A DNA stretch of 39,973 nt. Origin: a virus. The stretch is from the IMG/VR virus record IMGVR_UViG_3300025732_000094, positions 1 to 39,973 of that record. The stretch is one strand, 5' to 3'. Below, one piece after another: positions 13,410 through 24,439 of the stretch; the stretch's first letter is position 1, and the number at the start of each line of letters is the position of its first letter. The notes under the pieces were generated by a model. The model did not search any database. It was not told where the DNA came from and saw only the letters and a list, made by a program, of their open reading frames with translations. Both the position numbers and the translations under genes were made by a program.

Positions 13410-13431
13410 CCCAGCCCCTTATGGGGCTGGG
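13410..13431 (+). terminator. Hairpin after first early gene (attenuator or processing site)
   Basis: CCCAGCCCC-TTAT-GGGGCTGGG makes a perfect 9-bp stem 24 bases past the stop of the first early gene. There is no T-tract after it, so full intrinsic termination is doubtful; partial attenuation or protection of the first message is more likely. Confidence 0.5.
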
Positions 13432-13457
13432 CATGCGCACAATTGGAGGTTAGGGAT

Positions 13458-13619
13458 ATGCATTACATTGATTGCCCAATTAGCGAGGGCAAGGATTGTA
13501 CCTGTAGGAATTGCCAACACTATTCTTATAGAATAGTGAGGGACGAGGATGGCAGGAGAATTGTCTGGCTATGCTTTGATTGCGAAGCAACAATTTGGAG
13601 GGAGATTGATTATGTATGA
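13458..13619 (+). CDS. Small zinc-ribbon-like protein (53 aa)
   Basis: 53 residues with six Cys; CRNC near 16-19 and CFDC near 39-42 form two CxxC knuckles around a short beta hairpin, the pattern of a small zinc ribbon. A Shine-Dalgarno GGAGG precedes the ATG. It overlaps the next gene by 8 bases. Ribbons of this size bind nucleic acid or a protein partner such as RNA polymerase; here the target is unknown. Confidence 0.65.
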   Translation: MHYIDCPISEGKDCTCRNCQHYSYRIVRDEDGRRIVWLCFDCEATIWREIDYV

Positions 13620-13818
13620 GCAGATCCACACAAATGGAGCAACCACCACTTTCGCGAGGGTCTATGAATTGAAGCGTCCCGAAGGGACGGTCTGGATCTT
13701 TGAGAAGATGGCAGCGGATATTGTCAATAGCGAATGTGAAACATTCGGTATTGAGGAGTTTGAACTGCAGTATTATGCAGAGGAGCGGCTGCAGCAGGCA
13801 ATTAAGGAGGGCGTATGA
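13612..13818 (+). CDS. Small hypothetical protein (68 aa)
   Basis: 68 residues starting at the ATG at 13612 behind GGAGGG (MYEQIHTNGATTTFARVYELKRPEG). It has an alternating beta-rich first half and an acidic helical second half ending EERLQQAIKEGV. No domain recognised. It overlaps neighbours on both sides (8 bases upstream, ATGA downstream), so translation is likely coupled. Confidence 0.65.
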   Translation: MYEQIHTNGATTTFARVYELKRPEGTVWIFEKMAADIVNSECETFGIEEFELQYYAEERLQQAIKEGV

Positions 13819-13925
13819 TTTGGCTTGAGGATATTGTTGAAGCAATTGGCAAGGTGTTCGTACTAGTAGGCTTTGCCTACCTATTTGCCCATGTAGTTGT
13901 ATGGGTGTTTGGAATTGGGAGGTAG
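13815..13925 (+). CDS. Single-pass membrane mini-protein (36 aa)
   Basis: 36 residues (MIWLEDIVEAIGKVFVLVGF…) with one hydrophobic segment spanning about residues 13-33. The ATG overlaps the upstream stop (ATGA) and follows AAGGAGG. It may sit in the host membrane; superinfection exclusion or interference with a membrane complex is possible for such a product, without direct evidence. Confidence 0.5.
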   Translation: MIWLEDIVEAIGKVFVLVGFAYLFAHVVVWVFGIGR

Positions 13926-13926
13926 C

Positions 13927-14115
13927 ATGAAGGTGCAACTTGAATGGATTGACGGACAAGAGCAGGAATTGTACGAGAAATTGTACGAGGACGCAATTAC
14001 TACCAACAAGGGGTATCGGAAGTTTGATTTGCATGGGCTATGCAATATCCTTGGCTACTGTGATTGTGCCGAGGCAAGTAAGCCAGAAAGGGAAGGTCTA
14101 TTGGATTGTGAGTAG
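13927..14115 (+). CDS. Small hypothetical protein (62 aa)
   Basis: 62 residues starting MKVQLEWIDGQEQELYEKLYEDA, one base after the previous stop and behind GGGAGG. It is acidic with Cys residues at the end (LCNILGYCDCAEA) that could bind a metal, though spacing is not a standard ribbon. Function unknown. Confidence 0.6.
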   Translation: MKVQLEWIDGQEQELYEKLYEDAITTNKGYRKFDLHGLCNILGYCDCAEASKPEREGLLDCE

Positions 14116-14329
14116 GCAAATCGGCATCAGCGCAACGGATCGCAATCAACCAGTGGTTGAATGTTTCCGCTGCAAGAAGGAAGCCAATTGGTTGGGCGTG
14201 GAATTCACGCACACACAAACAGACAAGGAGGTGGAATTTGTAGAAGCGTACTGCGATAATTGTGGGCATCACGACACCCACGTAGGGAATTGCTGCCACC
14301 TAGGAAGAGAGCAGCGCAAGAAGAGGTAA
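14108..14329 (+). CDS. Zinc-ribbon protein (about 73 aa, GTG start)
   Basis: Reading from a GTG at 14108, which overlaps the preceding gene by 8 bases, gives about 73 residues with two CxxC knuckles (CFRCKKEANW and CDNCGHHDTH) about 30 residues apart plus a CC pair near the end, a treble-clef or ribbon-like zinc site. No ATG exists upstream outside the previous gene. The tail is basic (REQRKKR). Unknown target; likely nucleic acid or protein binding. Confidence 0.6.
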   Translation: MSRQIGISATDRNQPVVECFRCKKEANWLGVEFTHTQTDKEVEFVEAYCDNCGHHDTHVGNCCHLGREQRKKR

Positions 14330-14332
14330 ATT

Positions 14333-14713
14333 ATGTACCGCATGTACACAATTAAGGTGAACGAGCATGGTGTTCAGTTTCAATTAATGGATCTTAATAT
14401 ATCAAAGCATGACTTTGATATGGAGGATCAGATCGCATTCTATGCACAAGTTGTGCATGACCTGCGGCTGCGTTGCGACAATTGGGATGGGTGTCCAGAC
14501 AGGGAGAACTTTGACAGGGAGTATTGCACCTTGGCTATGGACAGGACAATTGAGCAGCGCGCAAGAATGGTTGAGGAATTGATCAAAGATTGGGTCAAGT
14601 CCAATAGCGTATGGCAAGTCTCGCTCAAGTATGGCGAGCAATTCAGGCAGATCACCTGCTTTGATCTGACTGGAGAAGCAATTATGCAGGTGCAAATTGA
14701 GGAGGAACGATGA
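14333..14713 (+). CDS. Hypothetical protein (126 aa)
   Basis: 126 residues, mixed alpha/beta, with a beta-rich start (MYTIKVNEHGVQFQLMDLNIS), a helical middle (TIEQRARMVEELIKDWVKSNSVWQVSLKY) and an acidic end. It follows GAAGAGG and overlaps the next gene by four bases (ATGA). No family recognised. It lies in the block of small early genes likely to tune host functions. Confidence 0.65.
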   Translation: MYRMYTIKVNEHGVQFQLMDLNISKHDFDMEDQIAFYAQVVHDLRLRCDNWDGCPDRENFDREYCTLAMDRTIEQRARMVEELIKDWVKSNSVWQVSLKYGEQFRQITCFDLTGEAIMQVQIEEER

Positions 14714-14967
14714 GGGAATACGGCAATTATCGTATGCTCATGAACAAGTACAACCAATTGTCCAAGTACATGCGTAAGGTACGCAATTGGATGGAGGTGT
14801 ACCAGAATAGAGCGCTCGCAATTGACGCAGGGTGGAGTGATATTGTTGAGATTGAACAATATTACACGACGCTTGAGATGCGTAAGATCTCGCACGATCT
14901 TGCGGAACTTGATCCGCAAGGGGTATTGCGACGCAAATATGAGGAGGACAACAATGGCAGCCGATGA
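14710..14967 (+). CDS. Helical hypothetical protein (85 aa)
   Basis: 85 residues, almost entirely helical and rich in Tyr, Lys, Met and Glu (NYRMLMNKYNQLSKYMRKVRNWMEVYQNRALAIDAGW). A two-helix hairpin or coiled coil is likely. Its start overlaps the upstream stop (ATGA) and its end overlaps the next gene by 14 bases. Function unknown. Confidence 0.65.
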   Translation: MREYGNYRMLMNKYNQLSKYMRKVRNWMEVYQNRALAIDAGWSDIVEIEQYYTTLEMRKISHDLAELDPQGVLRRKYEEDNNGSR

Positions 14968-15265
14968 ATTGCGCATGCAACTACAGGACATCGTTGATCG
15001 GCTCGTGGAAAACCACGATCCAGAAGACGATGACAACCAGTTCCTATCAATTGATTTGGAGCGGGTTGCAAAAGTGTGGATCACCTTTGGTGGTCCCAAT
15101 ATCTGGATTGAATTGCGGGAATATTCCAAGTCCGTAATTCATGGTGCATGGGGTTCCGACACAGCCAAAGTATGGCTGACCGATGAGGAAGAGGCAAGCG
15201 TATTGGCAGCGCTTGGCGCATCGGATATTGCGGAACTGTTGGATGGATTGGAGGCACGAGGATGA
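14954..15265 (+). CDS. Hypothetical protein (103 aa)
   Basis: 103 residues starting at the ATG at 14954 behind GAGGAGG (MAADELRMQLQDIVDRLVEN). It has an acidic helix, a beta meander around a VWITFGGPNIWIELREYS segment, and a C-terminal acidic helix (EEEASVLAALGASDIAELLDGLEARG). Reminiscent of small phage proteins of unknown function; no domain assigned. Overlaps the next gene by four bases. Confidence 0.65.
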   Translation: MAADELRMQLQDIVDRLVENHDPEDDDNQFLSIDLERVAKVWITFGGPNIWIELREYSKSVIHGAWGSDTAKVWLTDEEEASVLAALGASDIAELLDGLEARG

Positions 15266-15636
15266 GTATTGAGCAGGATATTCTGGACGCAATTGAGGCT
15301 GGCGTAGCAGCGGGGAGGGACGCAATTCCTGAACCAATGGTCGTCAAAGATACACAGTCCGATAGGAATTGGTACGTGTCCGAGGGTCCATGCGGATTTG
15401 CATGGGTAGAATTCAAGGGCAATACCAAGTTTGCTCGTGCTGTCAAGAGGATCTTTGAGGGCAAGGATCGCAATGGGTTGGTGTCATATGGCAACGCCTA
15501 CCCTACAGGCAAGCAACTCTGGATCACAGCGTTCGGTCAATCATATGATCGGAAGTCTGCTATGGCAGGTGCTATCGCTAGAGTATTGCGTGAGCGTGGG
15601 TACGCTGACGTATGGGCAGGCGGGAGGTTGGACTGA
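15262..15636 (+). CDS. Hypothetical protein (124 aa)
   Basis: 124 residues starting with an acidic helix (SIEQDILDAIEAGVAAGRDAI) and then an alpha/beta domain with Trp/Gly-rich turns (SEGPCGFAWVEFKGNTKFARAVKRIF … LWITAFGQSYDRKSAMAGAIARVLRERGY). Start overlaps the previous stop (ATGA) behind GGAGG, and its stop shares a base with the next start. No family recognised. Confidence 0.65.
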   Translation: MSIEQDILDAIEAGVAAGRDAIPEPMVVKDTQSDRNWYVSEGPCGFAWVEFKGNTKFARAVKRIFEGKDRNGLVSYGNAYPTGKQLWITAFGQSYDRKSAMAGAIARVLRERGYADVWAGGRLD

Positions 15637-15779
15637 TGAGTTGGCACACAGACAATTGCGACATATGCAATATGGACTTCGGTCCATTCGGGATGATCAT
15701 TTGTCCTGAGTGCATGAAGTCATATTGCAATGAGTGCAATTCAACAGGGCATGATTGTGAGGTGCAAGATGATGAGTAA
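15636..15779 (+). CDS. Small zinc-finger protein (47 aa)
   Basis: 47 residues with CDIC, CPEC and CNEC knuckles plus a closing HDC, eight potential ligands in total (MSWHTDNCDICNMDFGPFG…). The density suggests a two-zinc, RING- or B-box-like fold or a ribbon pair. The TGATG junction couples it to the upstream gene, and it overlaps the next ORF by 11 bases. Target unknown. Confidence 0.6.
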   Translation: MSWHTDNCDICNMDFGPFGMIICPECMKSYCNECNSTGHDCEVQDDE

Positions 15780-15999
15780 GATGAAGGAGTCGGTTGACTT
15801 CTGGCTTGACAATCATGGGTCGCTTGGGATTCTCCGCCCATATTCGGAGCGAGCAAAGGAGTGGATGGATGAGCGCAAGTTAGAGAACACATTCGGGCAG
15901 GACAATTACCTGTTCGGATTTGGTGGTATGGTAATTGAACCAAGGTACTTCAACGCAATTGTTGAAGCGCTGACAGACGAGGGATACCTCGTCGGATAG
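15769..15999 (+). CDS. Small hypothetical protein (76 aa)
   Basis: Starts at the ATG pair at 15769/15772, seven bases after GAGG; the longer frame is open further upstream but has no better site. Aromatic, mixed-charge protein with a GFGGMVIEPRYFNAIVEALTDEGYLV end that looks well folded. Unknown function. Confidence 0.6.
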   Translation: MMSKMKESVDFWLDNHGSLGILRPYSERAKEWMDERKLENTFGQDNYLFGFGGMVIEPRYFNAIVEALTDEGYLVG

Positions 16000-16011
16000 G
16001 AGGACATATGA
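15994..16011 (+). repeat. 18-bp translation-initiation module, copy 1
   Basis: GGATAGGAGGACATATGA, containing the stop of one gene, a perfect AGGAGG ribosome-binding site and the next ATG, is repeated exactly at 17174-17191. Shared junctions of this type can act as recombination points for gene shuffling. Confidence 0.65.
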
Positions 16012-16451
16012 GCAGCAACTATTTCTATAGCGATTACAGCGACATGAACGATATCGCATCAGCAATTGATGACGCTATGTCAGCGTTGCGTGAGGCGGAA
16101 TCAGTGGTCAGCAACTTTGAGGATGTGGATATTGATGATATCGTATCCGAGAAAGTTGGCGACCAGATTGAGGAAGTGCGCGACCAGTACAAGGAATTGT
16201 ACGAGTCCGCGTTCGCCGCAACTAACTCCGTCGTTAAAAACACTGAGGATGAGATTGACACTAACGTGGCAATTAAACTCTTCAATGTAATTACTTGGCT
16301 GTTTGATAACGCAAGCAGCGACCCATATCGCAGCAAGTACCACGTCCTGTCTGGTATTGAGCAGACGCTACGTGAGTACAAGGACAAGCGATTTGAAGAG
16401 TTGCAGGCAGCAGAGGCAGCGAAGTCTGCCCCTGATACGGCAGCGTACTAA
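16008..16451 (+). CDS. Acidic coiled-coil hypothetical protein (147 aa)
   Basis: 147 residues, strongly acidic and helical. Residues about 14-70 (NDIASAIDDAMSALREAESVVSNFED … IEEVRDQYKELYESAF) look like a coiled coil; a short hydrophobic helix follows (VAIKLFNVITWLFDNASS). An ideal AGGAGG lies 7 bases before the ATG. No family recognised. Acidic small early proteins sometimes mimic DNA or sequester host factors; there is no direct sign here. Confidence 0.65.
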   Translation: MSSNYFYSDYSDMNDIASAIDDAMSALREAESVVSNFEDVDIDDIVSEKVGDQIEEVRDQYKELYESAFAATNSVVKNTEDEIDTNVAIKLFNVITWLFDNASSDPYRSKYHVLSGIEQTLREYKDKRFEELQAAEAAKSAPDTAAY

Positions 16452-16873
16452 TGGTAATCGCGCTGCTATTGGCAGCGCTGAGTGGCATCGTCCCTCCCCC
16501 TATTGCGGGGGAGGGACGCGCTACTTGGTATGACGCAACACGGAATAACGCTTGGTATACCAGAGGCGGCAACCGTATGTACGGAGCCGTTGGTAATTGG
16601 AGATGGGGAGACACGCCGTATGACGTGATCGTAACTAATATCCAGAATGGCAAGCGAGTACGAGTCGTCATCACCGACTATTGCGAGGCTTGCGACGAGG
16701 GTAGAAACCTGATAGACTTATCGCCAGAGGCGTTCAAGAAGTTGGGCTACCCCCTATTAAGAGGAGTCATGTGGGTACGAATTACGTACCCAAATAGAAA
16801 GGACGTATATGAAAAAGTTTCTTGTAAGTGTCAAGGTTCCTTCGGTCAGCACCTCTATTTGTGTTACCGCTAA
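16451..16873 (+). CDS. Secreted RlpA-like double-psi beta-barrel protein
   Basis: 140 residues with a short N-terminal hydrophobic segment (VIALLLAALSGIV), likely a signal peptide, followed by a DPBB domain: GEGRATWYDA near 20-29, then VRVVITDYCEACDEGRNLIDLSPEAFKKLG at about 70-99. The latter carries the Asp of the 'V-x-D-x-C' motif (Asp76), Cys78 and Cys81, and IDLSPEAF, hallmarks of RlpA and expansin-like barrels. Host RlpA proteins cut or bind glycan strands at the cell wall. The last 25 residues, after the barrel ends at VRITYPN, are read through the start of the next gene. An early-expressed exported wall-active protein is unusual; a lysis or host-wall remodelling role is inferred. Confidence 0.8.
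   Translation: MVIALLLAALSGIVPPPIAGEGRATWYDATRNNAWYTRGGNRMYGAVGNWRWGDTPYDVIVTNIQNGKRVRVVITDYCEACDEGRNLIDLSPEAFKKLGYPLLRGVMWVRITYPNRKDVYEKVSCKCQGSFGQHLYLCYR
16489..16518 (+). promoter_or_regulatory. 12-bp GC-rich hairpin inside the RlpA-like gene
   Basis: CGTCCCTCCCCC and GGGGGAGGGACG pair perfectly around a six-base loop (16501-16506), 38 bases into the RlpA-like reading frame at the end of the signal peptide. No T-tract follows, so pausing or control of translation of the exported protein is more likely than termination. Confidence 0.6.
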
Positions 16874-17096
16874 TGACGAACGCGAAGCGCAAGTCATAGC
16901 AGATTCAGTAATTGCAAATGCAGATCCTAATCTGTATGAGGGATTGCTTGATTCCTTTTACGATGAGTACGCAGACGTAGAGGAAATCATGGAGGACGAC
17001 AACAATTGGGGCGAGAAGATGCCCAAGTTCAAGGCTGCATATAGCAGTGATGGTTCCATCATTGGCTATGAGGAAGAGATTGTAGACAAGTCTTGA
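16809..17096 (+). CDS. Hypothetical protein (95 aa)
   Basis: 95 residues (MKKFLVSVKVPSVSTSICVTANDEREAQ…), beta-rich at the start then acidic and helical. The frame overlaps the RlpA-like gene by 65 bases but has its own AGAAAGGA ribosome-binding site. This beta-alpha layout of a short phage protein resembles DpnD/PcfM-like small domains, but the match is weak. Function unknown. Confidence 0.65.
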   Translation: MKKFLVSVKVPSVSTSICVTANDEREAQVIADSVIANADPNLYEGLLDSFYDEYADVEEIMEDDNNWGEKMPKFKAAYSSDGSIIGYEEEIVDKS

Positions 17097-17179
17097 CGCG
17101 GGGCGATCAAGCCTATACAATTGGGGCAACAGTGGTGATGATCGCCTTGCTGTTGTACCTGCAGATATGTACAGGATAG
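17093..17179 (+). CDS. Possible membrane mini-protein (28 aa, TTG start)
   Basis: A TTG overlapping the previous stop (TTGA) opens a 28-codon frame (MTRGDQAYTIGATVVMIALL…) with one hydrophobic segment over residues 10-25. Support is limited to coupling, the hydrophobic profile and the filling of a 90-base gap. Confidence 0.35.
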   Translation: MTRGDQAYTIGATVVMIALLLYLQICTG

Positions 17180-17191
17180 GAGGACATATGA
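17174..17191 (+). repeat. 18-bp translation-initiation module, copy 2
   Basis: Exact repeat of 15994-16011 (GGATAGGAGGACATATGA), again joining a stop codon, AGGAGG and an ATG. Confidence 0.65.
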
Positions 17192-17469
17192 CGTTTGATC
17201 CATTAGCATACACATACCAAGGACAATACTATTGCACCACCTGCGGTGAGGCGCTGCCTGACGACGGTGAATTGCAGCCAGTATTTGGATACCATTGGAG
17301 CGAGATGGCTGAAGCCAACCCGCATGGTGAGTTGTGTACTGAATGCAACACCGTTCTAATTGAGGGATGGTGTGAGGCGGCAGACGCAGGCAATATAGGC
17401 AATGGCTTCTGTGGCGATTGCGATTTGAGTGGACGCGTAAGTCTGGAGGATCAGTATGAAGATCAATAG
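17188..17469 (+). CDS. Zinc-ribbon hypothetical protein (93 aa)
   Basis: 93 residues from the ATG at 17188 behind AGGAGG. It has CTTCGEALPDDGE, then CTEC and CGDC knuckles, eight or more Cys in total, and is strongly acidic. The first and second CxxC could form a ribbon with the third as a second site. It overlaps the next gene by 14 bases. Target unknown. Confidence 0.65.
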   Translation: MTFDPLAYTYQGQYYCTTCGEALPDDGELQPVFGYHWSEMAEANPHGELCTECNTVLIEGWCEAADAGNIGNGFCGDCDLSGRVSLEDQYEDQ

Positions 17470-17887
17470 TATTACTCTCACGAACGAGGACGCTGCCGAC
17501 ATTGTACACTGTGCAGTTGAGGGCGGCACTAACTATTGGGCAGAGGTACGCAATTACAATTGGAAGGACTGGTACGAGAAGGATCCGCTACGATCAACGC
17601 CTCGCTATGATGGCGAGCGTATCAAGTTGGATCTACCAGAGGACTATGTATTTGTAGAGATGCGTGAGGATGACGAGCAGGTAGAACCAGAGAGGGCTAT
17701 CAACTCGTGGGTTCCAATTACGCGTAAGAATTTGGAGAAGGGTGTGATCTATCTTATTGAGAACATGCCGCACCTAATTCATGGCGTATCAAATCGTGGC
17801 GAAGGAGACATTGAGTTTGACTTTGATGGCACGTCATGCGACGTGATTATCCAGTACGCAATGTTTGAGGAGGTCATCTATGGATGA
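17456..17887 (+). CDS. Hypothetical protein (143 aa)
   Basis: 143 residues, acidic, with a conserved-looking core (ITLTNEDAADIVHCAVEGGTNYWAEVRNYNWKDWYEKDP) that is familiar from hypothetical proteins of many phages of aquatic bacteria, though no function is known. The second half (NLEKGVIYLIENMPHLIHGVSNRGEGDIEFDFDGTSCDVIIQYAMFEEVIYG) is an alpha/beta unit. A GGAGG site precedes the ATG. Confidence 0.7.
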   Translation: MKINSITLTNEDAADIVHCAVEGGTNYWAEVRNYNWKDWYEKDPLRSTPRYDGERIKLDLPEDYVFVEMREDDEQVEPERAINSWVPITRKNLEKGVIYLIENMPHLIHGVSNRGEGDIEFDFDGTSCDVIIQYAMFEEVIYG

Positions 17888-18092
17888 GACGAAGTATATC
17901 AACGACGAGATGATTAAGCCACTGATCGGGTGGACTGTTGTCGGTGGCGTAATTGACAACAACGTCACGAAGGGATGGGGACAGGCGTTCCCTATCCTGA
18001 TACTTGAGCGAGAAGGCAAGCGTGTCTACGCCACAATTACGGCGGACGACGAATGGAATGAAGGCGGGAGGATCATGATTGATGCGGACTAA
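17880..18092 (+). CDS. Small hypothetical protein (70 aa)
   Basis: 70 residues from the ATG at 17880 behind GAGGAGG. A compact beta-rich protein (LIGWTVVGGVIDNNVTKGWGQAFPILILEREGKRVYATITADDEWNEGG) of a kind common in phages, possibly SH3-like. It overlaps upstream by 8 bases and downstream by 11. Function unknown. Confidence 0.65.
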   Translation: MDETKYINDEMIKPLIGWTVVGGVIDNNVTKGWGQAFPILILEREGKRVYATITADDEWNEGGRIMIDAD

Positions 18093-18357
18093 GAAGGTGG
18101 GAATTGCCTACCTTCCTGTGCTGTTGTCGCTCACATTTGAGGGCGACCCACTGGATGACACGAAGATGGCGGCTAAAGAAATAATGCTGTCAGTCTTTGA
18201 AGAGTTGCAGGGAATGCAGTATGAGGTCGGGAATGCGACGTTTGAATTCTATACACTAGACTGGTTGCCTGGTTCTTACATGGATCAGGTGCAAGAATTT
18301 GAAGTGGAGGATGATGTTGACGACGAAACTACGGAAGAAACTGAAGAGCCAAGTTAG
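18082..18357 (+). CDS. Acidic hypothetical protein (about 91 aa)
   Basis: Starts at the ATG at 18082, nine bases after GGGAGG; a TTG one codon earlier is also open. A small alpha/beta domain (VGIAYLPVLLSLTFEGDPLDDTKMAAKEIMLSVFEELQ) is followed by a very acidic tail (EFEVEDDVDDETTEETEEPS). Function unknown; the tail may mimic nucleic acid. Confidence 0.6.
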   Translation: MRTKKVGIAYLPVLLSLTFEGDPLDDTKMAAKEIMLSVFEELQGMQYEVGNATFEFYTLDWLPGSYMDQVQEFEVEDDVDDETTEETEEPS

Positions 18358-18778
18358 TCAAATGTCTGAGATGTTCGCGATAAGTATTGCGGAATGCTCA
18401 GTACATGGCGAAGGCAATCGGGAATGCGAATGCGGTACGCTTGCGTACCATTACGACTATCTCGTGAATGCATTACGCGCTACGGATGCACTACCTGTAG
18501 GCAAGAGTGGCAAGCAGTATTCGCGCAGACGTAAGTATCGCCCGATCCATGCAGCCCCACACTTTGCGAAGCCTGGGCTTGTCCAACAGGCGGACGAGTC
18601 CTACTTGAAGGCGCTTGACTTAGGTCATGATGTTGAGGTAATCTGGGATGACTCATGTTGTGCTGCGATGTACTGCAGTGAATGCGACACATGGGGATTC
18701 ACGATGTATGATTACCTTGATGACCCAGAGGGAGCCGTTGAGGAAGGAGAAATGTATCTGAAAGAATGTGGATCTTAG
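18314..18778 (+). CDS. Cys-rich hypothetical protein (about 154 aa)
   Basis: Open from several starts; the ATG at 18314 behind GGAGG is preferred, giving about 154 residues that overlap the previous gene by 44 bases. A start at MSEMF (18362) would remove the overlap but has no ribosome-binding site. It contains CSVHGEGNRECECG, a basic middle (KQYSRRRKYRPIHAA), and DDSCCAAMYCSECDTWG, a plausible zinc site. Last gene before the dnaB operon; function unknown. Confidence 0.6.
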   Translation: MLTTKLRKKLKSQVSQMSEMFAISIAECSVHGEGNRECECGTLAYHYDYLVNALRATDALPVGKSGKQYSRRRKYRPIHAAPHFAKPGLVQQADESYLKALDLGHDVEVIWDDSCCAAMYCSECDTWGFTMYDYLDDPEGAVEEGEMYLKECGS

Positions 18779-18780
18779 TA

Positions 18781-18804
18781 TATAATATTAGATCTATATA
18801 TAAT
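18781..18804 (+). promoter_or_regulatory. Possible promoter before dnaB
   Basis: The 39-base gap before dnaB is almost pure A/T with two TATAAT boxes (18781-18786 and 18799-18804), 14 and 33 bases upstream of the ATG. No convincing -35 is seen. It could give dnaB and the recombination genes their own start. Confidence 0.35.
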
Positions 18805-18817
18805 AGAAAGAGGACGT

Positions 18818-20086
18818 ATGAATCAAACACCACCGAGGTACGAACAGGCTGAGGAATCCGTTATTGGCAGTGTCCTGATTGATCAGGAATGCGTAGATGA
18901 TTGCATCTCCGTACTCACTTCCGATGACTTCTCCAAGCCAGAGCATGCCAAGATCTGGCGTGCTATTGAAGCGCTGCACAAGCGTAGTGCAGCAATAGAT
19001 ATCGTCACCGTTAACGAGGAATGTGGCGGCGACATGGGCAGCGCACTGTCTCTCCTAATTGAGAAGACACCTACGTCTGCCAACGTCGCAACATACGTCA
19101 AGATGGTGGACGAAGCGTCAGTCAACCGCACGATCATCAAGACCGCTGCCAAGATTGCAGAGATCGGGTATCAGAACATGACACCTGACGAGGCGATCAA
19201 TGCTGCGGAGCAGGCGATCATGCGCATCCGCAATGCGAAGGCGACGAATTCGTTTGCAAGTATGCAGACGCTTGTCAACAACGCATTGACCAAGGGTGAG
19301 GATGCTGCTGTTAAGGCAGGCATCAAGCCACTGGATGACTTGACTGGGGGCTGGCACAACTCTGACCTGATCATTGTTGCAGCACGTCCAAGCGTAGGTA
19401 AGACGGCACTCGCCGTCAACCTTGCGGTTGAGGCTGCGCTATGGCAGAAGAAGAGCGTGGCAATCTTCTCACTAGAAATGTCAGGCGAGCAGATTACTTC
19501 TCGCATGTTGGCAGACGAAGCGAAGATTGACATGAAGCGTATCAAGTCGGGCGACCTCACCATTGAGGAGCGTGCCAACCTGACCGCTGCTGCCGACCGT
19601 ATTGCCAAGGCAAGGATTTGGATTGACGACTCAGCGTCGTTGACACCATTGGATATCCGCTCTCGCTGCCGTAAGTTGCGGCGTGACGTAGGTCTGGACA
19701 TGGTGATCATTGATTACCTGCAGTTGTTGCAATCCAATCGTCAGTCGCATGATGCTAACCGCGTGATGGAAACGTCGGACATTAGCCGTAGCCTTAAGGC
19801 TGTGGCTCGTGAGTTCCACGTGCCTGTCATTGCGCTGTCGCAACTCAGTCGTCAGTCTGAGTATCGTGAGGGTGGCGAGCCTCGGCTCTCCGACCTGCGA
19901 GACAGCGGCTCTATTGAGCAGGATGCGGATATCGTACTTATGCTATGGCGACCGAAGACTTCTGAGGAAGAGACGTACTTTGATACGGTCAACTTCAAGG
20001 TAGCCAAGCATCGCAACGGACCTATCGGGGACTTCTCCCTGCTATTCAAGCGGGAGACAACATCATTCAGGGGGATGCATGAATAG
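18818..20086 (+). CDS. dnaB: Replicative DNA helicase, DnaB family
   Basis: 422 residues with both DnaB parts: an N-terminal helical domain (EESVIGSVLIDQECVDDCISVLTSDDFSKPEHAKIWRAIEAL) and a RecA-like motor with Walker A ARPSVGKT at about 189-196, FSLEMSGEQ near 217-225, Walker B VIIDYLQLL near 296-304 and the LSQLSRQ and SGSIEQDAD motifs later. It unwinds DNA ahead of the replisome as a hexamer. The phage encodes no recognisable primase, loader or polymerase, so it probably recruits host partners. It overlaps the downstream nuclease gene by 8 bases. Slightly shorter than bacterial DnaB (about 470), typical of phage copies. Confidence 0.97.
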   Translation: MNQTPPRYEQAEESVIGSVLIDQECVDDCISVLTSDDFSKPEHAKIWRAIEALHKRSAAIDIVTVNEECGGDMGSALSLLIEKTPTSANVATYVKMVDEASVNRTIIKTAAKIAEIGYQNMTPDEAINAAEQAIMRIRNAKATNSFASMQTLVNNALTKGEDAAVKAGIKPLDDLTGGWHNSDLIIVAARPSVGKTALAVNLAVEAALWQKKSVAIFSLEMSGEQITSRMLADEAKIDMKRIKSGDLTIEERANLTAAADRIAKARIWIDDSASLTPLDIRSRCRKLRRDVGLDMVIIDYLQLLQSNRQSHDANRVMETSDISRSLKAVAREFHVPVIALSQLSRQSEYREGGEPRLSDLRDSGSIEQDADIVLMLWRPKTSEEETYFDTVNFKVAKHRNGPIGDFSLLFKRETTSFRGMHE

Positions 20087-20759
20087 CATCAGCGACGCAA
20101 TGAACATGTCGCTGCGCAAGAAGCAGGAGGTGGGTCGCCCATCTCTTGCCTTCTGGCGTGGCTCGCTCATGGGCGGATGCCTACGAGCGCACTGGTACAA
20201 TAGCACTGGCGAGGAGGGGAAACCTTTTGATGATGCCACCCTGCGTCTCTTTGAGCGTGGGCATGTCGTCTCGGATACGGTGAACAAACTCCTCGCTAGT
20301 AGCCCAGCCTTCACATCATTTGAGTCAGAGGTTCCTGTAGCAATTGAACGCTACGATTTCGCTGGCAACATTGATGCGGTGGTTCAGTGGGCAGGCACAG
20401 GACACGTGGAAATCCTTGAGTACAAGAGTGTCAGGCAGAGGGCGCTCGCCTATCTCAAGGAGGTGAAGCCTGAGCATGCGATTCAGGCGGCGCTCTACTC
20501 CAACGGTCTGACCTTGCAGCGGGTAGCCCAACACAGGATCCCCGCTCGTGTGGTATACTTCTCTGCAGACGACCTTGAGACGAGGGAGTTCCTACTAGAG
20601 GATCACTGGTACGAGAGGGCGTGGCGTGTGCTAGAAGTGGCACATAAGTTTAAGGTGGCGAACAGGATTCCACCAAGGATTCCAGGCGCTACAGAAGGAC
20701 GCAAGTATCCATGTGGGTACTGCAACTATCAGGCGAAATGCCTAGGAGGACAATCATGA
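20079..20759 (+). CDS. PD-(D/E)XK nuclease, Cas4/AddB-like with Fe-S cluster Cys
   Basis: 226 residues with a PD-(D/E)XK core: His62 (RGHVV), Asp99 (GNIDAVV), Glu114-x-Lys116 (EILEYKSV) and Gln136 (HAIQAALYSNGL). One Cys near the N-terminus (Cys34) and three at the end (CGYCNYQAKC, Cys212, 215, 221) match the four ligands of the iron-sulphur cluster in Cas4/AddB/RecB-type nucleases. It would resect DNA ends to single strands. Placed between dnaB and the ERF annealing gene, it probably forms an exonuclease/annealase recombination pair with ERF. No cas1 or CRISPR array is present. Confidence 0.88.
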   Translation: MNSISDAMNMSLRKKQEVGRPSLAFWRGSLMGGCLRAHWYNSTGEEGKPFDDATLRLFERGHVVSDTVNKLLASSPAFTSFESEVPVAIERYDFAGNIDAVVQWAGTGHVEILEYKSVRQRALAYLKEVKPEHAIQAALYSNGLTLQRVAQHRIPARVVYFSADDLETREFLLEDHWYERAWRVLEVAHKFKVANRIPPRIPGATEGRKYPCGYCNYQAKCLGGQS

Positions 20760-21274
20760 CAGGATCACTCCATAAGAAACTGGCTGAGGTATTGACCGCA
20801 GTCGGATACATTGAGAAGGCGGGGACCAACGCTTCTCAGGGCTACAAGTATGTGATGGCTGCACAGGTAGCGGACAAGGTTCGCGACGAGTTTGCCAAGC
20901 GCAATCTCACCATGCTTCCGACAAACATTGAAGTCGTTGAGTCTGGTCTCACCCCAAGTCAGAAGCAGGTACTGACCACGCTACGAGTTACGTGGACAAT
21001 CACCGATGCTGACAGCAATAGCAGCATCTCGTTCCAGTCCGTCGGCTCTGGTTCCGACAGTACGGATAAGGCTGTGTACAAGGCAATGACAGGCGCACTT
21101 AAGTATGCGCTGCTCCTTGGATTCCTAATCCCAACTGGCGATGACCCTGAGCATGAGAGCGGCGACAAGGTTGTTGCCGATGCAGCCAAGCGGATCTTTA
21201 CAGAAGATCCAAAGGCAATCAGGACAGCAGAGAAGAAGGCGTTGGCATTTGATCCTAACGCCATTGAGTTCTAG
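20756..21274 (+). CDS. erf: ERF-family single-strand annealing protein
   Basis: About 172 residues from the ATG at 20756 behind AGGAGG, overlapping the previous stop (ATGA). The N-terminal half has the ERF core: KLAEVLTAVGYIEKAGTNASQGYKYVMAAQVADKVRDEFAKRNLTMLP, and then the conserved SVGSGSDSTDKAVYKAMTGALKYALLLGFLIPTGDDPE segment. ERF proteins anneal complementary single strands during phage recombination. It likely works with the adjacent nuclease and possibly the SSB-like protein. Confidence 0.92.
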   Translation: MTGSLHKKLAEVLTAVGYIEKAGTNASQGYKYVMAAQVADKVRDEFAKRNLTMLPTNIEVVESGLTPSQKQVLTTLRVTWTITDADSNSSISFQSVGSGSDSTDKAVYKAMTGALKYALLLGFLIPTGDDPEHESGDKVVADAAKRIFTEDPKAIRTAEKKALAFDPNAIEF

Positions 21275-21282
21275 GAGGTTAC

Positions 21283-21459
21283 ATGCCAGGTAAGAAGAAA
21301 AAGGTTTCACTAGTTGAAGGATATGCAGGAATGTTTGAGCGTTACAAGAACGCAAAGCAGAAGAGCAAGCACGAGAAGAGCGAGTCCAAGTCAGACATGG
21401 CTAAGGAATCTAAGCGAGAGAAGTTGCTTGCAAAGAAGAAGGGCAAAGGCAAGAAGTAA
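21283..21459 (+). CDS. Lysine-rich mini-protein (58 aa)
   Basis: 58 residues ([20 protein letters not shown]…), about 40 % Lys, behind AGGAGG. Only the first third looks folded; the rest is a charged helix or disordered. Its stop overlaps the next ATG by one base. Located in the recombination cassette, it may bind DNA. Confidence 0.65.
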
Positions 21460-21620
21460 TGCCAATGAAGAAGGGGTCTTCTAAGAAGACCATCTCATTC
21501 AACATTAGTCGGGAGGTCAAGCGTGGTCACCCGATTAAGCAGGCAATTGCAATGGCATTGTCTGCAGCAGGTAAGTCTAAGCCTAAGAAGGCGAAGACTA
21601 AGAAGCGAGGAGGACGGTAA
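21459..21620 (+). CDS. Lysine-rich mini-protein, DUF6496-like (53 aa)
   Basis: 53 residues with basic ends and a central [21 protein letters not shown] motif that resembles the '(R/K)QAIAIALSEAGKS' core of DUF6496 proteins found in many phages; the match is from memory. Coupled to both neighbours by one-base TAATG overlaps. Likely DNA-binding; role unknown. Confidence 0.65.
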
Positions 21621-22006
21621 TGGATCGTATTGATATCTGGCTTTCAGACAAGAAGGCTCCGACCCGCAAGGTCACAAAGAACGGAACTAATGTCATGGAG
21701 TTCTATGGCTCATGGCAGACGGAAGCGTATGACGCATGGATTAGCGCTGGCAAGACTGGCGCTGCACCAGAGCGCTACGTGTATGTCAATGTCAGCGTCT
21801 TTGACGAAGGCTTGATGGCACATGTAGAAAAGGTATACGCCAAGGTCACTGGTTCTGAGACGCGAGACGCACGACCGCATGCTCACCTTGTGGGCAAGTG
21901 GCGACAGGGCGGTAGTCGCGAAGTGAATGGCAAGACATACGCTGACTTCACAGCCAACGAAGTCTCGCCACTTCTATACCATGCAAAGAGTTTCCCAAAT
22001 GGGTGA
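21620..22006 (+). CDS. SSB-like OB-fold protein (probable)
   Basis: 128 residues beginning [32 protein letters not shown]. The central and C-terminal pattern (YVYVNVSVFDEGLMAHVEKVYAKVTGSETRDARPHAHLVGKWRQG … GKTYADFTANEVSPL) resembles single-strand DNA-binding OB folds, in which a strand pair ends in a 'kxyadftaxEV' segment; the position next to ERF supports it. No acidic C-terminal tail is seen. Could instead be an unrelated beta-barrel. Confidence 0.55.
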   Translation: MDRIDIWLSDKKAPTRKVTKNGTNVMEFYGSWQTEAYDAWISAGKTGAAPERYVYVNVSVFDEGLMAHVEKVYAKVTGSETRDARPHAHLVGKWRQGGSREVNGKTYADFTANEVSPLLYHAKSFPNG

Positions 22007-22157
22007 GGTCATTGCGTCGCTATTTATTGGAGGTGTTGTCGGTGTTCTATTTGCGTTCGTTCATGTTCCAGTTCCAGCCCCGCCTACGGTTGCTGGAGTT
22101 GCTGGAATCCTTGGTCTTACACTGGGGTATGCGGCTATCGCGTCGTTAACTGCATAA
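21999..22157 (+). CDS. XapX-like membrane protein (52 aa)
   Basis: Starts at the ATG at 21999, overlapping the previous gene by 8 bases. Residues about 3-22 and 30-50 form two membrane segments around the signature VPVPAPPTVAGVAGILGLTLGY, which matches XapX-domain (DUF1427-like) proteins. Bacterial XapX proteins are small membrane proteins of unknown function. A phage copy in an early operon is unusual. Confidence 0.7.
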   Translation: MGEVIASLFIGGVVGVLFAFVHVPVPAPPTVAGVAGILGLTLGYAAIASLTA

Positions 22158-22483
22158 TGGATTCCCGCAAAGGACGGCTCAATCGTTCAAGAGGAATATC
22201 TTTTGAGCGAGAGATTGCGAAAGCAATCAAGGGCAGACGGACGGGAATGTATGGGGGGAAGGATGATGTAGCCAGTGATGATCTTGTCGCCCAGACGAAG
22301 GTAGGCAAGATGTTTCCAGAACGTATCTGGGACTGGCTCATCACCGTTCCTGCTAAAGCAGACCAGATCAAGAGCGTCATTATTGGTGACGCTCCTGGGG
22401 CTGGCACAAAGAGAAGGGTCATCATTGTGATGGACTTTGAGGATTTTAAAAGGAGATATCTAGATGCCACCAAAGAGGACTGA
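22157..22483 (+). CDS. Small PD-(D/E)XK-type nuclease (variant QxK)
   Basis: 108 residues with RGISFEREIAKAI (candidate Glu17/19), then ASDDLVAQTKVG where Asp41/42 and Gln46-x-Lys48 fit a PD-(D/E)XK core with Gln in place of Glu, as in some Holliday-junction resolvases and phage endonucleases. A C-terminal RRVIIVMDFEDFKRRY strand-helix completes the fold. A resolvase that trims branched DNA before packaging is the likely role; the first gene base overlaps the XapX stop. Confidence 0.65.
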   Translation: MDSRKGRLNRSRGISFEREIAKAIKGRRTGMYGGKDDVASDDLVAQTKVGKMFPERIWDWLITVPAKADQIKSVIIGDAPGAGTKRRVIIVMDFEDFKRRYLDATKED

Positions 22484-22652
22484 GATTGCAGAGGTATGCA
22501 CCGACTGGATGTACGCATTCCGTTACGCAATCCTTGTAATCGCAGAAGCAAAAGGTCTACCAATGGAAAAGGATACCAAGGTGGACGAAGCAACAGTTGA
22601 GCAGGCGCTGCGCGTAAGCGAAGCGACGCTTGGAAAGGTACGGTTTCCATAA
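22464..22652 (+). CDS. Small hypothetical protein (62 aa)
   Basis: 62 residues (MPPKRTEIAEVCTDWMYAFRYAILVIAEAKGLPMEKD…) with a central amphipathic helix, behind AAAAGGAG; a 20-base overlap with the nuclease gene. No domain recognised. Confidence 0.6.
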   Translation: MPPKRTEIAEVCTDWMYAFRYAILVIAEAKGLPMEKDTKVDEATVEQALRVSEATLGKVRFP

Positions 22653-22852
22653 TGGCAACCAACCCAGATAGTATTGAAGATAATCCAAACCCAATTAGGG
22701 TAGTGGTTAATAGTGTAGTGACAAAGGCACGAGGCTGGAGTCAGAGGATCTTGTTCGCAATAGCGACCGCAATCATTGCGACTGGTGCGTCACCGCTTGA
22801 CGCTATTGGTGCTGCACTCATGGTTCTTGTGATCTATGAGGTGCTTAAGTGA
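22652..22852 (+). CDS. Small two-helix membrane protein (66 aa)
   Basis: 66 residues; an N-terminal 30-residue hydrophilic part is followed by two hydrophobic segments (RILFAIATAIIATGA and AIGAALMVLVIYEVL) separated by a short SPLDA turn. It could be a holin-like pore or a host-membrane modifier. The stop overlaps the next GTG start (GTGA). Confidence 0.6.
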   Translation: MATNPDSIEDNPNPIRVVVNSVVTKARGWSQRILFAIATAIIATGASPLDAIGAALMVLVIYEVLK

Positions 22853-23202
22853 ATGTGAAGGAGTACCAAGAATTTGTGCGAGCAACAAGTGGAGCATACA
22901 GAGAACTGTCTTCGCGAGAAGGAAGAGTTGCTGCGGCTGCTCTGGGACTCGTTGGCGAGGCAGGGGAAACTAGTGAGGTCATCAAGAAGTGGCTCTTTCA
23001 CAGGCATCCCTATGACGCTAATGCCTTTATCAAAGAACTCGGAGACGTACTCTGGTATGTCACAGAACTATGCAATGCGACTGGCATCGCGCTTGAAGAA
23101 GTCCTTCAGGCTAACGTTGTCAAACTAAAGGCACGCTACCCAGATGGGTGGTCTGCAACGGATAGTATTACACGCAAGGACGAAAGTGTCCAAGGTGTCT
23201 AA
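22849..23202 (+). CDS. MazG-like nucleotide pyrophosphohydrolase
   Basis: 117 residues from a GTG at 22849. The metal-binding helices are present: GLVGEAGETSEVIKK with Glu37, Glu40 and Glu43, then KELGDVLWYVTELC with Glu63 and Asp66, the 'EAGE…E-x-x-D' signature. The length matches single-domain phage MazG-like enzymes, which hydrolyse (d)NTPs to monophosphates and may clean the nucleotide pool or affect alarmone signalling. Placed in the DNA-metabolism block. Confidence 0.9.
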   Translation: MNVKEYQEFVRATSGAYRELSSREGRVAAAALGLVGEAGETSEVIKKWLFHRHPYDANAFIKELGDVLWYVTELCNATGIALEEVLQANVVKLKARYPDGWSATDSITRKDESVQGV

Positions 23203-23398
23203 GTACGTCGGGAATATCCGACGTACTATTTCCAATCCATCTGAACCAACCTATAGAAAGGTCGTGGTCAAGATGCTTGAGGAACATCGCTTGCCGCGTG
23301 ATATCATTGGAGCAATCCATCTAGGGATGGAGATTGCGCTTGATGCTGTTGAGGCGGAAGCGAGGAAGGAGGACTTAAATGTCCAACGCACTAACTAG
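23195..23398 (+). CDS. Small hypothetical protein (about 67 aa, GTG start)
   Basis: Reading from GTG at 23195 (or 23186) gives about 67-70 residues: basic beginning (SKYVGNIRRTISNPSEPTYRKVVVKMLEEHRLPRDIIGAIHLGMEI) and an acidic end. The helical 'LPRDIIGAIHLGMEIALDAVEAEARK' resembles a small helical bundle. Both ends overlap neighbours, so translation is coupled. Function unknown. Confidence 0.55.
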   Translation: MSKYVGNIRRTISNPSEPTYRKVVVKMLEEHRLPRDIIGAIHLGMEIALDAVEAEARKEDLNVQRTN

Positions 23399-24119
23399 GC
23401 AGATCATTGCCATGAAGGAAGAAGGTAAGTCCTATACGCAGATCGGCAAGGTTGTCGGGATGAGCAAGGACGCAGTACAAAAGGTGTATAAGCGATACCT
23501 AGAGGATGATGGCACAGCGATTACCGCAGCCAAGATCCCACCGTCAATGTCGGCGAGCAAGTCTCCAAAGGGATATGTCGGACCGACGATTGCGTTCTAT
23601 GATATTGAGACAACCTACTCCGCATGGAGCAGGATCCTTTCGGTATGTATCGTAGACGGATTCGGAAACCTTGAGGTCTTCCGACTGGATGATCCTAAGT
23701 ATAAGGGCAAGTCGTGGACAGACGACTCAGTTCTTGTGCGTGCTGTCAAGGAAAGCCTTGAAGGATACGACATTATTGTAGGATGGAATAGCAAGTTGTT
23801 TGACTTGCCTATCATTAACGCACGTCTCCTTGCTTCGGGGCAAGAGCCATGCGATCCGCTGATGCACATTGACCTGATGTACAAGGCGACTGGTTCGGCA
23901 GTACGTGTCGGACGGAAGTCACTTGACAACGTATCCAAGTACTTTGGCGTAGAGAATAAGAAGACTCCTCTTGACCCGCGCATCTGGGATCGCGCTGATC
24001 ATGGAGACAAGGGTGCTTACGAAAGCATCATTGAACATAACATTGCAGACGTATACGTCACACGAGATGTATACGGTAAGTTGAAGCGCCTCGTGCGCAA
24101 TATCCACCGAGGAGGGTGA
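23379..24119 (+). CDS. DEDDh 3'-5' exonuclease with N-terminal HTH
   Basis: 246 residues. Residues about 3-41 form a helix-turn-helix (AMKEEGKSYTQIGKVVGMSKDAVQKVYKRY). After a linker, an RNase-H-like exonuclease follows: FYDIETT (Asp75, Glu77), GWNSKLFDLPIINAR (Asp142) and IEHNIADVYVTRDVY (His220, Asp224). This is the set of motif residues of DnaQ/PolB-type proofreading domains, without any polymerase domain. A sequence- or structure-guided exonuclease acting on recombination intermediates, or a degraded relic of a PolB, are both possible. It ends by overlapping the holin start. Confidence 0.82.
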   Translation: MSNALTRQIIAMKEEGKSYTQIGKVVGMSKDAVQKVYKRYLEDDGTAITAAKIPPSMSASKSPKGYVGPTIAFYDIETTYSAWSRILSVCIVDGFGNLEVFRLDDPKYKGKSWTDDSVLVRAVKESLEGYDIIVGWNSKLFDLPIINARLLASGQEPCDPLMHIDLMYKATGSAVRVGRKSLDNVSKYFGVENKKTPLDPRIWDRADHGDKGAYESIIEHNIADVYVTRDVYGKLKRLVRNIHRGG

Positions 24120-24439
24120 TGATGGATCAGATTCTAATCAACACGGTAATCCCAATACTGGCTACCGTTATCTCAGGCTTTGTTCTTCTGGTGGTACGCA
24201 ATACCAATCAGTGGATCAAGGCTCGTACAACAGAGGAACAGTACCGCTTCATTGAGCAGGTAGTAACTACCGCAGTCAATGCAGCAGAACAGTACCTTGG
24301 CAGCGGGGAAGGGGAGCAGAAGAAGCGACTCGTCCTCACCGCCGCAACACAGGTTCTTCAGAAGCGTGGAATTGATGTTGATGCAGATCAACTAGACATT
24401 GCTATTGAAGCAGCCGTTCGTAAGGAATTCGCGAAGTAA
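24116..24439 (+). CDS. Holin, LL-H family-like
   Basis: About 107 residues from a GTG/ATG cluster at 24116-24122. A single N-terminal membrane segment (IPILATVISGFVLLVV) is followed by a helical cytoplasmic part (RTTEEQYRFIEQVVTTAVNAAEQYLGSGEGEQKKRLVLTAATQVLQKRGIDVDADQLDIAIEAAV), the architecture of phage LL-H-type holins. It would make the membrane lesion that lets the endolysin reach the wall. Odd that it ends the early strand, opposite the late genes. Confidence 0.8.
   Translation: MMMDQILINTVIPILATVISGFVLLVVRNTNQWIKARTTEEQYRFIEQVVTTAVNAAEQYLGSGEGEQKKRLVLTAATQVLQKRGIDVDADQLDIAIEAAVRKEFAK

Follow-up and report, generated by a model that had tools for sequence, protein, structure and literature searches.

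The locus raises the question why one short palindrome, AATT, is crowded into a block of small genes and scarce in the genes that follow on the same strand. The window, meaning the whole stretch of 39,973 bases that was analysed, is an IMG/VR virus record of an unclassified phage, with a terminase gene at 495-2000 and structural genes lying mostly on the minus strand. Between about 13.0 and 24.4 kb the genes lie on the plus strand: first the small-gene block, then dnaB, followed by genes for a Cas4-like exonuclease, an RNase H-like protein and a holin. An earlier note on this DNA had estimated by eye about 50 AATTG or CAATT sites in the block and about 5 in the next 5.6 kb, with a sharp edge near 18.1 kb. 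The contrast was rightly seen: a total of 53 distinct sites (AATTG 37, CAATT 32, CAATTG 16) lie in 13440-18110, versus 6 word starts (AATTG 3, CAATT 3) in 18110-23700, and the rest of the window predicts about 5.5 CAATT and 7.5 AATTG for the block. The edge is real as well, since a change-point fit of AATT density places it at 18.3 kb; the left edge falls at 12.4 or 13.2 kb, and the AATT usage per gene jumps at 13458.

The core of the signal is AATT itself (62 in 13440-18110 vs 8 in 18110-23700), and the excess of AATTG and CAATT follows from AATT together with ATTG or CAAT. Isolated S-AATT-S runs number 31 in the block against 11.4 expected. Other four-letter A/T runs are not comparably raised (TATT comes second, 14 vs 6.8) and neither are longer A/T runs; a general A/T enrichment has been rejected, the rest of the A/T runs being flat or depleted. 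GATC and ATAT are likewise somewhat raised in the block. Expressed as a share of synonymous opportunities, AATT is used at 44% in the AATT-rich domain (13440-18300, plus strand, about 18 small genes), at 6% in the dnaB-to-holin genes (18362-24439, plus strand; 8 vs 19.4 expected) and at 17% in the structural genes, the difference between block and dnaB-holin having a p of 4e-14. The domain consists of two parts on the plus strand; a core at 13458-15999, where 57% of the opportunities are used (about 41/72), and a weaker part at 16008-18092, with about 28%. The weaker part includes an RlpA-like DPBB gene (16451-16873, plus strand) and a phrog_2355 gene (17456-17887, plus strand), the latter with a synonymous switch relative to its relatives. 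A very strong hairpin with an 11-bp stem (GTCCCTCCCCC/GGGGGAGGGAC) is located at 16490-16517, within the opening part of the RlpA-like gene and near the fall in usage from 57% to 28%; a hairpin has also been found at 8231 in the relative L024, near its RlpA homologue.

The earlier note held that codon bias alone could not account for the sharp edge, and codon shuffling shows that it does not explain the excess. In synonymous shuffles of the block coding sequence with proteins and codon usage fixed, about 33.4 AATT were obtained vs 58 observed, and keeping the neighbouring bases as well raised the figure to 39.8; this rejects codon usage as such, the amino-acid content and the context of neighbouring bases as explanations. 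Since AGCT, TCGA, GGCC and CCGG are banned completely by this phage, a Monte Carlo synonymous null in which these four words are forbidden was also run (300 simulations). It gives 33.3 +/- 4.2 AATT with a simulated maximum of 48, and none of the 300 simulations reaches 58. Of the 256 tetramers, none is as over-represented under this null as AATT (z 6.0; the largest z of any word in simulated sequences is 4.1), and CAATTG stands at 14 vs about 5.9. A cause acting at the level of the word is thus needed, AATT being 1.5 to 1.75-fold above the codon-usage nulls.

The same preference is visible codon by codon. In the block, isoleucine is written ATT rather than ATC in 29 of the 32 cases that follow an A-ended codon vs 30/62 otherwise (p 4e-5); the corresponding figures are 5/20 vs 55/101 in the dnaB-holin genes and 81/119 vs 256/380 in the structural genes. 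In the isoleucine context, therefore, AATT is favoured in the block, disfavoured in dnaB-holin and neutral in the structural genes, where the Asn and E/Q/K contexts disfavour it. For E/Q/K codons before TT, the choice spelling AATT is favoured in the block (p 0.02), and Asn before T leans in the same direction, not significantly. Within codon context AATT is favoured across all three frames of the block. The flanks are asymmetric on the coding strand, GAATTG and CAATTA together reaching 24 vs 6.7 while their reverse complements stand at 9 vs 6.4; this asymmetry is weak in the relatives L101 and L024. AATT shows no significant helical phasing at 10-11 bp in the window (p 0.09) or in the relative (p 0.4-0.5), the window core alone giving p 0.03 before correction.

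The limits of the domain have a counterpart in putative transcription signals. At its left edge lies a 9-bp GC-rich hairpin (13410-13431, plus strand; CCCAGCCCC TTAT GGGGCTGGG), and hairpins occur at the matching place in L024 and L093, the one in L093 followed by six T. Before dnaB there is an intergenic promoter-like element, CTGAAA-17-TATAAT (18758-18786, plus strand), whose TATAAT-like core is conserved in the window, L024, L006 (as TATACT) and L007. Promoter-like matches are no commoner than in shuffled sequence, so that for this element it is the conservation that counts. Because of the hairpin and the conserved element, the AATT-rich domain probably forms one transcription unit, separate from dnaB, and the edges of the enrichment fit this likely unit. 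This makes a common operon of the block and its neighbour, as the earlier note supposed, doubtful. The tRNA and Rfam scans gave no matches.

The earlier note had also proposed that related phages be compared. The relatives are metagenomic fragments with genes called by a simple script, and some modules had to be compared across different contigs. The outcome is divided: the excess recurs in L002 and in L024/L101, is absent from L005/L006 and gives way to almost no AATT in six sister contigs. In the near relative L002 the AATT excess is kept; of the single AATT sites compared with the window 15/20 are conserved, other tetramers having a mean of 0.81, and no site-by-site conservation beyond the average was found. 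L024 and L101 are 99.8% identical to each other and so count as one lineage, not two; their block proteins are about 55% identical to those of the window. Here the excess is clearest for CAATTG (11 vs 3.9), followed by AATTG (20 vs 10.6), and is smaller for bare AATT (35 vs 25.4). The blocks of L005/L006, L007 and L093 use 6-8%, 15% and 20% of their AATT opportunities, which are few in some relatives. In orthologous genes the use is 0.50 in the window vs 0.44 in L101, and 0.43 vs 0.08 in L006.

In the six sister contigs (L020, L014, L084, L012, L092 and L095; DnaB about 55-58%) the orthologous genes hold no AATT. Their blocks use one of 566 opportunities (0/287 and 1/279 by group), with AATT counts of 0/34 and 1/39 against expectation, and the structural genes of the two groups use 0.18 and 0.09, so that AATT is missing only from the early part while structural genes contain ordinary numbers. 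The switch is seen most closely in the gene at 17456-17887, with five AATT in the window, six in L002, none in L006/L005 at about 95% protein identity and none in L020 at 88%; several of the differences between the window and L006 are synonymous. In trees of DnaB and of the exonuclease, the AATT-poor L005-L007 are nested within the AATT-rich group, and the AATT state has therefore changed at least twice there. The dnaB-holin genes are AATT-poor in every lineage, including those where the block is AATT-free. A/T runs as a class are scarce in every lineage's early region, so part of the depletion in the sisters is not specific to AATT. A distant RlpA-like gene is found in L103, L108, L109 and L102, which lack AGCT only and are AATT-poor.

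The background to these changes is a phage group under strong selection on palindromes. AGCT, TCGA, GGCC and CCGG do not occur once in the whole 40-kb window (48.5% GC), where a Markov model expects 152, 121, 88 and 53, and the ban also holds inside the block, in its AATT-poor neighbours and in the sisters. The four words are absent across the close clade, with one TCGA in G001, and are all present in cousins at 65-70% terminase identity. The subclade of G002, G003 and G024 contains TCGA. L025-L027, L085, L086 and L099 represent a subclade without AGCT, GGCC and CCGG and with normal TCGA, which suggests that one restriction pressure has been gained or lost. GGTACC, GACGTC and CGATCG are also absent from the window and CCATGG nearly so; TTGA is over-represented in nearly every module of the window and its relatives, largely as a replacement of the banned TCGA. 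About a tenth of viral genomes are described as having lost sites completely or almost completely, and in dsDNA phages the affected sites are those of orthodox type II systems (PMC6286503). The absence of AGCT, GGCC and CCGG (and, in most members of the clade, TCGA) fits this classic signature of restriction avoidance.

As to AATT, the cousin G007 (L070, L090) has none in the roughly 37 kb read, and its other palindromes are present; AATT thus appears to be itself a target of restriction in this group. The sister blocks also lose ATAT, and some of them ACGT, TTAA or TATA, and their structural genes do not: the blocks of L012, L092 and L095 hold 0 of 41 expected ATAT and 23 of 65 ACGT. Further losses of this kind are seen in the blocks of L006 and L007, with ATAT at 4/25, ACGT at 3/23 and TTAA at 1/14. 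These block-limited losses look like a restriction pressure focused on the early region. A palindrome far below expectation is thus found for AGCT, TCGA, GGCC and CCGG throughout the window, and for AATT in the sister blocks; in the window's own block AATT is enriched.

The reading tentatively preferred here, whose probability falls somewhat short of even, is that AATT is under strong word-level selection in this module, in a direction that differs between lineages. Most of the sister lineages would have cleared AATT out of the module and the replication genes, the likeliest cause being an early entry or early action of these genes that exposes them to type II restriction of AATT by the host. 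The pressure would be reversed in the lineages of the window and of L024/L101, where synonymous choices would keep AATT dense, mainly as [C/G]AATT[G/A] on the coding strand of the apparent single transcription unit. The most likely reason would be a sequence-specific reader of AATT, a phage or host protein, which would act on the DNA or mRNA of the unit through density and not through fixed sites. Reading of the message is suggested by the unit borders and by the coding-strand flank asymmetry of the window (weak in L024/L101), and reading of the DNA by the palindromic word in a clade that selects strongly on palindromes. Neither a reader protein nor a methylase was recognised among the proteins sampled, most of them of unknown family, and a host search through the terminase gave no match in 84,980 genomes or among isolate phages. 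A more explicit version is possible, if unlikely: the phage would mark one transcription unit with AATT dispersed at any position by means of synonymous codons, a factor of phage or host would read its density in DNA or message, and the sisters would have erased the mark altogether.

Several other explanations have to be weighed against selection by a reader. The window's lineage may merely be free of an AATT-cutting host, its module having drifted to the local equilibrium of codon usage and context-dependent mutation; this would agree with the strong avoidance of AATT in the sisters and in G007, with a turnover of AATT between the window and L002 like that of other words, and with the lean of block codons toward A/T endings. 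It is nevertheless regarded as rather unlikely, since AATT lies above all the codon-usage nulls, the codons chosen for Ile and E/Q/K shift specifically where AATT results, the neighbouring genes did not relax and other A/T runs show no matching rise. Release from restriction predicts the codon-usage level of about 24% of opportunities, not 44-57%, and positive selection is favoured for this reason. It is also conceivable, with a small probability, that AAUU in the messenger of the unit is the target of a sequence-specific RNA-binding or RNA-cleaving protein, for instance in clearing early messages, and that the next unit avoids the word. The coincidence of the domain with the likely transcription unit, the flank asymmetry in the window, the keeping of density and not of position, and the depletion in the following unit would all suit such an activity; however, the core word is palindromic, the asymmetry fades in L101/L024, the dnaB-holin genes are AATT-poor even beside an AATT-free block, and no RegB-like gene was recognised among the sampled proteins, most of unknown family.

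The causes named in the earlier note besides a signal word, and two further proposals, fare less well. A plain mutation bias is unlikely, because a single tetramer carries the signal, whose sign changes between lineages. A recent separate origin of the module from an AATT-rich donor would explain the sharp edge and the block genes without relatives, but most block genes have orthologues in the same order in the relatives, with low or zero AATT, and the block is therefore not foreign; the ban on the four palindromes is obeyed within it, and the gene at 17456 has five AATT vs none in L006 at such close protein identity. Synteny and the shared ban lead us to reject this origin, which is very improbable. 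A translational or codon-pair preference of the host for early genes, to which the many sites formed by an A-ended codon plus ATT might be ascribed, appears equally remote, or slightly more so, given that all three frames are affected, that the frame pattern differs between the window and L024, and that the neighbouring same-strand genes show the opposite behaviour. The least credible proposal is a by-product of the forbidden words, in which the ban on AGCT and TCGA forces TTG, ATT and A-ended codons that spell AATT. The TTGA excess is largely explained in this way; the AATT excess is not, because the null including the ban refutes it (33.3 vs 58), AATT-poor neighbours and sisters obey the same ban, and the loss among the alternative words is only about equal to the gain of AATT.

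The proposed selection on AATT, by restriction in one direction and by a reader in the other, can be compared with several known systems; no report of a region-limited AATT excess was found in the open-access literature. The first-step-transfer DNA of phage T5 lacks EcoRI sites, and the early region of T7 is protected. The sister blocks would resemble these cases in that the DNA which is first to enter or to act is devoid of sites (the early position being putative here), whereas the window's own module is enriched. The RegB protein of T4 is an endoribonuclease acting at GGAG in early messages; the likeness would lie in a short word read by one enzyme in early messages, which is putative here, and the difference lies in the palindromic nature of AATT and in the lack of a recognised homologue among the sampled proteins. 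Stoperators, Chi and uptake sequences are dispersed words, many copies of a short word being under selection; unlike these, the word of the window has four to six bases, lies inside genes, is limited to one module and is reversed in relatives.

A further parallel is restriction-site avoidance in dsDNA phages (PMC6286503), to which the removal of AGCT, TCGA, GGCC and CCGG corresponds and into which the loss of AATT in the sisters may fit too; the survey text does not mention AATT or early genes. That three to four palindromes are lacking across the clade hints at hosts with many restriction enzymes. In contrast to the avoidance described there, that of AATT is confined to early-region modules and is replaced by enrichment in the window's lineage. 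Avoidance of restriction sites is usually viewed as acting on the whole genome and in one direction; here the share of possible sites taken up by one palindrome varies between related phages from 0% to about 50% in orthologues that occupy the same place on the map, while the dnaB-holin replication module stays constant. This constitutes a natural experiment on the speed and locality of word-level selection, and it allows a clean search for the protein that would read AATT.
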